A stretch of 64,000 nucleotides of DNA from Mycobacterium sp. SMC-2 (lineage in GTDB: Bacteria > Actinomycetota > Actinomycetes > Mycobacteriales > Mycobacteriaceae). The DNA lies in contig NZ_CP079863.1 of NCBI RefSeq assembly GCF_025263485.1, positions 372,001 to 436,000 on the forward strand, written 5' to 3'. Below are positions 27,601 through 35,219 of this stretch, piece after piece. Position 1 is the first letter of the stretch; each line of letters begins with the position of its first letter. Position numbers and translations under genes: made by a program. Below the pieces are notes generated by a model. The model did no database searches, was not told the DNA's origin, and saw only the letters and a program-made list of their open reading frames with translations.

Positions 27601-30600
27601 AGCAGGCGGTGGTGGTCGCCCGCGAGGACCGCCCGGGCGACAAGCGACTGGTGGGCTATGTCACCGAGTCCGTCACCGGGGCGGTGGACCCGGCCGCGGT
27701 CCGTGCGCAGCTTGCCGAGCGGCTACCGGCCTACATGGTGCCTGCCGCGGTGATGGTGGTGCAGGGGCTGCCCCTGACGGTCAACGGCAAGCTGGACAGG
27801 CGCGCGCTGCCCGCACCCGAATACCAAGCCGGTCTTTACCGCGCCCCCGCCGGCGTGGTCGAGGAGGTCCTGGCCGGCGTCTACGCCCAGGTCCTGGGGC
27901 TCGGGCGGGTCGGGGTCGACGAGTCGTTCTTCGACCTGGGCGGGGATTCGCTGTCGGCGATGCGCCTGGTCGCCGCGATCAACAAAACCCTGGATACCAA
28001 CCTTGCGGTGCGCACGATCTTCGACGCGCCGTCCGTCAGAAGCCTGAACCGGCTGTTGGGTAGGGACGGCAGGCTGCTGGAAGCGGCTCCGGACGTGAGC
28101 CCGGCCAGCGATCTGTGCTTCGCGTCCGTGCACGGCGGCGACAGCACCGAGGTGCACGCCGGCGATCTGACGCTGGACAAGTTCATCGACGCCCCGACGC
28201 TGTCGGCCGCTCCGAGCCTGCCGCGGGCGGGCACCGAGGCCCGGACGGTCCTGCTCACCGGGGCGACCGGCTTCCTCGGCCGTTACCTGGCCCTGCAGTG
28301 GCTCGAGCGGTTGAAGCTCGTCGACGGCACGCTGATCTGCCTGGTGCGCGCCACGTCCGATGAACAGGCGCGGCGCCGCCTCGACAAGACCTTCGACAGC
28401 GGCGACCCCGAGCTGCTGCAGCACTTCCAGGAACTGGCCACCGATCACCTGCGGGTCATCGCCGGTGACAAGGGCGAAACCAACCTGGGCCTGGACCGGC
28501 GGACCTGGCAGCGGCTGGCCGACACCGTCGATCTGATCGTCGATCCGGCCGCCCTGGTCAACGCCGTCCTGCCCTACCGAGAGCTGTTCGGGCCCAACGT
28601 CATGGGCACCGCCGAGCTGATCCGGCTCGCGCTCACCACCAAGATCAAGCCCTACACCTACGTGTCGACTTCGGACGTCGGCCGCCAGATCGAGCGGTCG
28701 CTGTTCACCGAGGACGCCGACATCCGCGTCATCAGTCCCACCCGCAAGATCGACCACAGCTACGGGAACGGATATCCCAACAGCAAGTGGGCCGGTGAGG
28801 TGCTGCTGCGCGAGGCCCACGACCTGTGTGGGCTGCCGGTCGCGGTGTTCCGCTCCGGCATGATCCTGGCCGAGCCCGGGTATGCGGGCCAGCTCAACGT
28901 GCCGGACACCGTCACACGCATGGTGCTGAGCGTCCTGGCCACCGGCGTCGCGCCCTCTTCGTTCTTCCGGCTCGACCCCGACGGCAACCGGCAGCGTTCG
29001 CATTTCGACGGGCTGCCCGTCGGTTTCGTCGCCGAGGCGATCGCCACGCTGGGCGCCCGGGCGGTCGACGGTTTTAAGACCTACCACGTGATGAACCCGC
29101 ACGACGACGGTATCGGGCCCGACGAGTACGTCGACTGGCTGATCGAGGCCGGTTACCCCATCGAGCGCATCGGCGATTTCGGGGAGTGGTTGCAGCGGTT
29201 CGAGGCCGCGCTGCGTGCCCTACCGGATCGACAGCGCCGGCACTCGGTGTTGCAGATGTTGCTGTTGCGCAATGCTATTCAGCCACCGCCGCCCGAGCCC
29301 AGCCGCGGGTCCTACGCGCCGACCGACCGGTTCCGCGCCGCGGTGCAGAAAGCCAAAATAGGCCCCGACAAGAACAATCCGGACATCCCGCACGTGTCGG
29401 CGCCGGTCATCCTCAAATACGCCACCGACCTGCAACTGCTCGGACTGCTGGGTGCGGAACGGGTCGGAGCCGACGACTCGCGTGTAGACGCGGGTCGGCG
29501 CAAGCCGTTGGTGGCCGGTCCACGCCCCGCAGTGGTCCCGCTGTCGTTCGCCCAAAGTCGGTTGTGGTTCCTCAACCGGTTCGAGGGTGGGGTTGCGACC
29601 TACAACATGCCGATCGCTTTCCGGATGACCGGGCCGCTGGACGTCGCGGCGCTGGGATCGGCACTCGACGACGTCGTCGCGCGCCATGAATCGCTCCGCA
29701 CCATATTTCCCGACATCGACGGTGTGCCGTTCCAGCAGGTGATGCCGGCCAAGCCGGGCATGTGGCGGGGCGGGGAGCCAGCGGTGACGTCTTTGCCGGA
29801 GCAGGAGGTCGCCGGCAGGGTGATCGCGCTGGCGGGGTACCGGTTCGATTTGTCGGCAGAGATTCCGATCCGTGCGCAGATCTACTCGGTCGGGTCCGAG
29901 CAGCATGTGGTGGCAATTGTTTTGCACCACATCGCTTTTGACGGCTGGTCGTTCGCCCCAATGGTCAGGGACATCGCCGAGGCGTACCGGGCACGGTCGC
30001 GGGGGGAGGCGCCGGGGTGGGCGCCGTTGCCGGTGCAGTATGCGGACTACACGCTTTGGCAGTTGGATTTGTTGGGCGCGGAGTCTGATCCGGACAGCGT
30101 TATCGCGGGCCAATTGCGTTACTGGCGGCAGGAATTAGCCGATCTGCCGGTAGTCGCGTCGCTGCCGACGGATCGGGCCCGCTCGCCGGAGCCCAGTTTC
30201 CGCGGTGATGCGATCGATGTGCCCATCGACCCGCCAACATGGGCGGGTATCAAACGCGTTGCAGCAGAGCATAATACAACGGCGTCGATGGTGCTGCAGG
30301 CGGCGGTGGCGGTGTTGTTGCACCGAGTCGGCGTCGGCGAGGACGTGGTGATGGGCACCCCGATCGCCGGACGGTTGGATCAGGCGCTCGACGATCTGGT
30401 CGGGTTCTTCGTCAACACCTGGGTGTTGCGGGTGGGGATCACTTCCGCGCACCGGTTCAGTGATGTGCTCCAACAGGTGCGCCATAAGGCGCTGGATGCC
30501 TACAGCAACCAGGATGTTCCGTTCGAGCGGCTGGTCGAGCAGCTCAACCCGGTGCGCTCCACGGCACACCATCCGCTGTTTCAGGTCTTCGTGGCCTTCC

Positions 30601-35219: not shown

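Follow-up and report, generated by a model that had tools for sequence, protein, structure and literature searches.

Introduction

The described systems closest to the one studied here are the terminal thioester reductase (R) domains of mycobacterial nonribosomal peptide synthetases (NRPSs), namely those of Nrp (structure 4dqv, which we take to be from M. tuberculosis) and of the glycopeptidolipid synthetases; the carboxylic acid reductases (CARs), which are adenylation-carrier-reductase (A-T-R) enzymes with one R domain each; and the fungal NRPS-like ATRR enzymes, in which two reductase domains in one chain divide the labour. Passages of a review place R domains among those that end an assembly line, and describe two reductases for the linear gramicidin line, an NRPS R domain and a separate aldo/keto reductase (PMC8949500). 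Here we analyse NRPS2, a synthetase encoded in a 64,000-nucleotide stretch of Mycobacterium sp. SMC-2 (contig NZ_CP079863.1, positions 372,001 to 436,000 of the forward strand; hereafter “the window”). NRPS2 carries two R domains: R7, which lies inside the protein behind the carrier domain T7, and R8, which ends it.

R7 and R8 resemble the terminal R domains of Nrp and the glycopeptidolipid synthetases in their PF07993 and TIGR01746 matches and in the Thr-Tyr-Lys triad. However, those domains end their proteins, whereas behind R7 come a full elongation module and another R domain. R7 also matches the CAR structures 5mso and 5msp over nearly the full length (711.8 and 541.3 bits), and R8 shares with the CARs the Asp at their switch position; the CARs have a single R domain each. 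As in linear gramicidin, there are two reductases in the line, but in NRPS2 they are domains of the same family within one polypeptide. The two reductases of ATRR sit side by side at the C-terminal end of one module, while those of NRPS2 are separated by C-A(MT)-T, a condensation domain, a methyltransferase-bearing adenylation domain and a carrier. Finally, a synthetase of M. goodii has the domain order of NRPS2 except for R7, and its terminal R domain is of the R8 type. The open-access literature searched yielded no account of an internal R domain with a module and another R domain behind it, subscription papers lying mostly outside this coverage. The statement of an earlier sequence-only reading of this DNA that it knew of no described mycobacterial lipopeptide synthetase with this layout is supported within the open literature searched only.

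Domain organization and catalytic integrity

The same reading had placed T7-R7-C8-A8(MT)-T8-R8 in one frame at 27840..35219. The open reading frame (ORF), Pfam, TIGR01746 and the domain map all confirmed this arrangement within NRPS2, which is a single uninterrupted open frame (E, epimerisation; residue numbers of R7 are counted from 28110):

18612..35219, + strand: NRPS2, 5535 aa, A5-T5-C6-A6-T6-E6-C7-A7-T7-R7-C8-A8(MT)-T8-R8
27882..28091, + strand: T7 carrier, motif FFDLGGDSL
28110..29450 (domain map 28152-29447), + strand: R7, internal thioester reductase, Thr187/Tyr222/Lys226 intact, Gly250
29451..29531, + strand: R7-C8 linker, with a T-domain-like opening
29532..30881, + strand: C8 condensation domain, HHIAFDG intact
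30963..33600 (3′ boundary approximate), + strand: A8 adenylation domain, split by a methyltransferase at 32352-32951 (Pfam, domain map)
33669..33851, + strand: T8 carrier (domain map)
33870..35216 (domain map 33912-35213), + strand: R8, terminal thioester reductase, Thr/Tyr/Lys intact, Asp250, then the stop codon

In the region 27000-35216, Pfam found NAD_binding_4 twice, Condensation once, AMP-binding twice (part of A7 falls inside this region and is counted among these stretches), methyltransferase families, and PP-binding twice, while TIGR01746 (thioester reductase) matched two stretches. The GGDS motif is present in both T7 and T8.

The Rossmann and Tyr/Lys motifs that the sequence-only reading had assigned to both R domains are borne out, as GxxGxxG, Thr, Tyr and Lys are kept in all five genomes compared, and R7 scores above the cut-off for both PF07993 and TIGR01746. 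R7 lacks the terminal position usual for R domains, since C8-A8(MT)-T8-R8 continue in frame, whereas R8 has it: the stop follows directly in four of the five genomes, and seven residues beyond the matched end of R8 in the fifth (G002). The R* (Dieckmann) domain is marked by the loss of the catalytic Tyr, according to a passage of PMC8949500; here, by contrast, Tyr222 is retained in 10 of 10 R domains. Moreover, the dN/dS ratios, from three comparisons each, are 0.25-0.27 for R7 and 0.20-0.35 for R8, and indicate that purifying constraint acts on both.

Occurrence of the layout in other genomes

The T-R-C order, for which the sequence-only reading had proposed a wider search, is present in independent mycobacterial assemblies. 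Using an R7+C8 query of 897 aa, we found a contiguous match over 897/897 residues in at least 4 of 396 genomes of the genus (G001, G002, G225 and G327), and a partial R7-C8 match at a contig edge in G038; as the two best candidates were scored per genome, these counts are lower bounds. In an order-level sample of 397 genomes, which overlaps the genus sample, the sole further contiguous case among the matches listed was G686, a partial one. At the protein level, the R-C stretch is fully covered in P0002 (the window's own protein), P0003 (M. seoulense), P0004 (M. paraffinicum), P0007 and P0025, among the best 120 of 972 and the best 120 of 956 scored hits in two protein searches. A domain scan of 169 proteins found an R domain in 32, and an internal one solely in P0001/P0002, P0003, P0004, P0007 and P0025, the last being tallied as such although its second R domain is cut or out of frame. 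The layout thereby occurs in at least six species (those of the window, G001, G002, G225, G327 and P0007; G001, represented by locus L002, is M. nebraskense), when the 87.8-90.9% DNA identity of the window to the other loci is treated as a species difference.

Colinearity of the cluster with the window extends from 1 to ~37.5 kb, the end of the compared stretch, in G225 and G327, from 18.0 to 40.7 kb in L002, and from 18.0 to 40.2 kb in L001; in both L001 and L002, 1919 residues follow the internal R domain. Because the layout is common to other species, and lies on contigs of 6.09 Mb in G225 and 5.53 Mb in G327, it is not an assembly duplication, the outcome that the sequence-only reading had named as refuting it.

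Several candidates for the T-R-C order were rejected. Three Nocardia loci (L055, L058 and L060) had listed matches to residues 1-943 of the R-C query, but no R domain was matched in them. In L005, L006 and L044 a stop follows the R domain, so the next C domain belongs to another ORF.

Gene conversion and four paralogue-specific islands

R7 and R8 of the window share 96.0% DNA identity overall, and 99.1% outside four short islands. Among 453 aligned amino-acid columns from five genomes, 16 have no state common to R7 and R8, and 15 of these 16 lie within the islands:

28668..28685, + strand: R7 island 1, codons 187-192, opening at the catalytic Thr
28845..28862, + strand: R7 island 2, codons 246-251, with Gly250 (position 998 of 5msp, 984 of 5mso)
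28908..28925, + strand: R7 island 3, codons 267-272
29247..29285, + strand: R7 island 4, codons 380-392, in the C-terminal segment
34428..34445, + strand: R8 island 1
34605..34622, + strand: R8 island 2, with Asp250
34668..34685, + strand: R8 island 3
35007..35051, + strand: R8 island 4, exceeding its R7 counterpart by two residues

Within single genomes of the five, R7 and R8 are 91.3-99.1% identical in the body of the domain and 54.8-62.4% in the islands. Between genomes, the body is 90.8% identical for R7-R7, 91.2% for R8-R8 and 89.5% for R7-R8, and the islands are 94.8% identical for R7-R7, 90.2% for R8-R8 and 59.6% for R7-R8. These identities are partly circular, as the very sites compared had served to define the islands. 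Site order is free of this circularity: 29 paralogue-fixed and 79 concerted sites fall into 11 runs, as compared to a mean of 43.5 after shuffling, and none of 10000 shuffles gave a number as low. P0007, which was outside the island definition, behaves in the same manner. Its R7 and R8 bodies are 91% identical to each other and 77-78% identical to R7 and R8 of the window, while its two sets of islands are 52% identical to each other, and match those of the window at 94% (R7-R7), 76% (R8-R8) and 48-52% (crosswise).

Synonymous divergence and phylogeny agree with this picture. The body dS between R7 and R8 is 0.025 within the window, versus 0.249-0.322 to the orthologues, and 0.193 within G002, versus 0.224-0.322. 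In the close trio G001/G225/G327, the values are 0.088-0.159 within and 0.064-0.158 between genomes; because the former are not below the latter, conversion in the trio mostly predates its split. Consistently, R7 groups with R8 in the body tree in the window and in G002, but not in the trio, and the island tree sets R7 apart from R8 with a support of 100. With paralogues closer than orthologues in the window, G002 and P0007, and orthology evident elsewhere in the gene, R7 and R8 are, on these comparisons, a gene-converted paralogue pair, the islands excepted. Gene conversion is named as a homogenising force in assembly lines in a passage of PMC9205934.

The loop containing the YxxxK motif (28758-28787 in R7, 34518-34547 in R8) is a lineage-specific conversion tract in the window, where the loops of R7 and R8 are identical and of the R8 version; R7 of P0003, P0004, P0007, P0025, L001 and L002 has its own version. 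This is a sign that the two domains can do with one and the same loop.

The active site and position 250

The islands were placed at the active site by alignment to solved structures and by published passages. The start of island 1 aligns to the catalytic Thr of the solved structures, which is Thr935 of SrCAR by counting along the chain, and Thr935 is given as the catalytic Thr in a passage of PMC10168641. By the same counting, island 4 falls within SrCAR segment 1119-1149, which has no counterpart in the fungal CAR described there. An AlphaFold2 model of R7, built with 21 close sequences, had a mean pLDDT of 50, too poor for distances.

Island 2 includes position 250, which aligns to the CAR switch Asp and is Gly in 5/5 R7 and Asp in 5/5 R8 domains; the Nrp R domain 4dqv, like R7, has Gly there. 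The CAR switch Asp, which limits reduction to two electrons, is residue 998 in SrCAR and 984 in MmCAR, in agreement with counting along the aligned chains. Mutating a single CAR Asp, with reorientation of the nicotinamide, leads to the alcohol by a four-electron reduction, as a passage of PMC8124467 reports, citing Gahloth 2017. With Gly at the CAR Asp position, R7 is probably alcohol-forming, by four-electron reduction.

That the sharpest differences between R7 and R8 lie around the active site suggests two jobs kept apart by selection. R7 is predicted to be functional because of the purifying constraint, and because its pocket islands were kept distinct while the rest was homogenised. As the islands stay paralogue-specific at active-site positions, activity is predicted for both domains, and R7 and R8 probably both work and differ on purpose.

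Distribution of the two pocket types

Fourteen paralogue-fixed positions, of which the islands hold 13 and the last is residue 152, were scored for the states of the window. Among a set of 61 unique R domains, the other R domains reach at most 12/14 for the R7 states and at most 5/14 for the R8 states. The R7-type pocket is met in terminal domains: the best score, 12/14, belongs to L077, a terminal R domain close to a contig end of G368, and the terminal R domains of P0135, P0139 and P0145 score 11/14 each, while the Nrp R domain 4dqv shares 9/14 states with R7, Gly250 included, and 0/14 with R8. Gly250 also occurs in P0100, P0112, L077, P0135, P0139, P0145, P0157 and P0158, every one of them terminal. 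For the R8 states, the top score outside the internal-R proteins is that of the M. goodii line (7/14 R8, 0/14 R7). A pocket specific for the N-methylated residue was considered as an explanation of R8, and is weak: P0081 ends in A-MT-T-R, yet has 2/14 R8 states.

Locus L106 of G368 has, near a contig end, a terminal R domain whose pocket is of the R7 type (12/14), and in the rest of this genome the closest match found to C8-A8-MT8 has only 45% identity.

An orthologue lacking R7

The NRPS2 of M. goodii is without R7. In both synthetases (P0161 from G346, P0152 from G079), the order is A-T-C-A-T-E-C-A-T-C-A-MT-T-R, and the terminal R domain is of the R8 type. Residues 1-3095 of P0161 are 71% identical to window residues 49-3153, and residues 3097-5014 are 73% identical to window residues 3629-5535, while window residues 3154-3628, comprising R7 and its linkers, have no counterpart. 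The surrounding genes, checked in G346 alone, match as well (NRPS1 68%, polyketide synthase end 78%, flanking methyltransferases 79% and 76%). A8-MT-T8 has matches in 159 of 392 genomes, and R7-less orthologues account for two of the seven regions examined, the others of these regions having a different architecture.

Either R7 was gained in the lineage of the window or it was lost in the M. goodii orthologue. The linker after R7 opens (29451-29495) with GAERVGADDS, like the T-domain start LERVGVDES, and this T-like opening hints at the scar of a domain insertion. The M. goodii line offers a natural control for R7.

Proposed mechanism and alternative explanations

Taking these results together, the explanation we favour, at about even confidence, is that in this eight-module mycobacterial lipopeptide line R7 is an optional early exit, and that R8 is the exit which the R7-less line has as well. 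R7 would take the chain from T7 and reduce it, probably by four electrons, to the heptapeptide alcohol. A chain escaping R7 would be extended by C8-A8(MT)-T8, and the octapeptide would then be released by R8, whose pocket type is common to the R7-less line. The outcome would be two products one N-methylated residue apart, with possibly different ends. The T-R-C order need not block elongation, because T6-E6-C7 in the same protein sets a similar-sized domain between T and C. A stronger version is tentative and rather less probable, namely a fork programmed in one polypeptide, with R7 yielding the heptapeptide alcohol, R8 yielding the N-methylated octapeptide with a different end, and selection shielding ~14 residues per R domain from conversion. 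The layout, the motifs and the choice at T7 had already been put forward in the sequence-only reading and are retained here; the gene-converted islands and the R7-less orthologue were overlooked in it.

Several points weigh against an optional early exit. A four-electron R domain beside T7 might drain the line, and the proposal that R7 acts on the product of R8, considered below, draws on the same sequence facts. In P0025, island 3 of R7 has R8-like residues. The locus L003, at the edge of a draft contig, begins inside an R domain in which islands 1-3 are of the R8 type and island 4 is of the R7 type; it is probably a collapsed repeat, and L003 and L050 are draft contigs of the same genome, broken within the R repeat. 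The distinction at position 250 is also less strict than it seems. The R domains of L005 and L006, assigned to glycopeptidolipid synthetases on architecture alone, carry Asp there, and glycopeptidolipids terminate in an amino alcohol, as stated in part of PMC3537567. In addition, over-reduction by a fungal CAR R domain is described in a passage of PMC10168641. Since the presumed glycopeptidolipid domains keep Asp and presumably serve amino-alcohol lines, Asp is not a strict marker of the aldehyde, and R8 could give either the aldehyde or the alcohol; we dropped Asp250 of R8 as proof of the aldehyde on the same ground.

Among the alternatives, the most credible, though unlikely, is that R8 releases the N-methylated octapeptide aldehyde by a two-electron reduction, and that the tethered R7 is a built-in aldehyde reductase that converts it into the alcohol. 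The Gly of R7 and Asp of R8 at the CAR switch position in 5/5 genomes, the retention of R8 in the R7-less orthologue, and the requirement of linear gramicidin for a separate reductase in the second step, noted in part of PMC8949500, all fit this proposal. However, R7 directly follows T7 and keeps the body of a thioester reductase, pockets like that of R7 occur in terminal R domains, and a single R domain is able to perform both steps, according to the same source. We consider it improbable that R7 is idle on every chain, its sequence being maintained by conversion from R8 and the octapeptide being the sole product. The R7 body has been repeatedly homogenised with R8, and even its YxxxK loop in the window follows R8; on the other hand, its catalytic residues are all retained in 5/5 genomes, and its islands are more conserved between genomes than its body (94.8% vs 90.8%, a partly circular comparison with which P0007 agrees at 94% vs 77%).

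Other systems use an R domain together with a C domain for aldehyde capture of the Pictet-Spengler type. C8 lies immediately 3′ of R7, and could in principle catch an R-released aldehyde in this way, but such chemistry is very improbable here: C8 retains the elongation motif HHIAFDG, shares as much as 77% identity with C domains from other synthetases of mycobacteria, and directly follows T7 in the R7-less orthologue. Least probable by far, to the point of being negligible, is a repeat duplicated artificially during assembly or polishing. In its favour are the 363-nt identical run shared by R7 and R8 of the window, and contigs that break within R in two other draft genomes (L003/L050 and L004). 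Nevertheless, independent assemblies carry the same layout, two of them on contigs >5 Mb, the islands have diverged, R7 and R8 have unique modules between them, and colinear clusters are present in G225, G327, L001 and L002.

What sets the aldehyde or alcohol outcome, and how R domains choose their chains, are in our judgement poorly mapped. Two R domains alike over most of their sequence, with their sharpest differences in four short islands, together with an R7-less orthologue, make both the determinants of the outcome and a mid-line exit testable. If the stronger version, the programmed fork, is true, evolution has singled out the very residues on which the outcome of an R domain depends. 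A mid-line exit would also break the working rule, used in genome mining, that lines end at their R domain.

Flanking genes

NRPS2 is preceded by the following genes:

1..2037, + strand: polyketide synthase end (zinc dehydrogenase-type ER, KR, carrier), the gene being cut by the window edge
2053..18615, + strand: NRPS1, 5520 aa, C-A-T-C-A-T-E-C-A-T-C-A-T-E-C

The second T domain of NRPS1 was recognised by its GGDS motif alone. NRPS1 and NRPS2 overlap by 4 bases (18612-18615), and module 5 is split across the two proteins, its C domain ending NRPS1 and A5 starting NRPS2. Together, the two proteins make up eight modules, in which epimerisation follows residues 2, 4 and 6, and the polyketide synthase is the probable source of a lipid starter. 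Two methyltransferase genes adjoin the cluster (35216-36265, − strand; 36264-37043, + strand) and may modify the product. A little beyond the cluster lies a dnaX-like gene (DNA polymerase III gamma/tau; 40238-42028, − strand).
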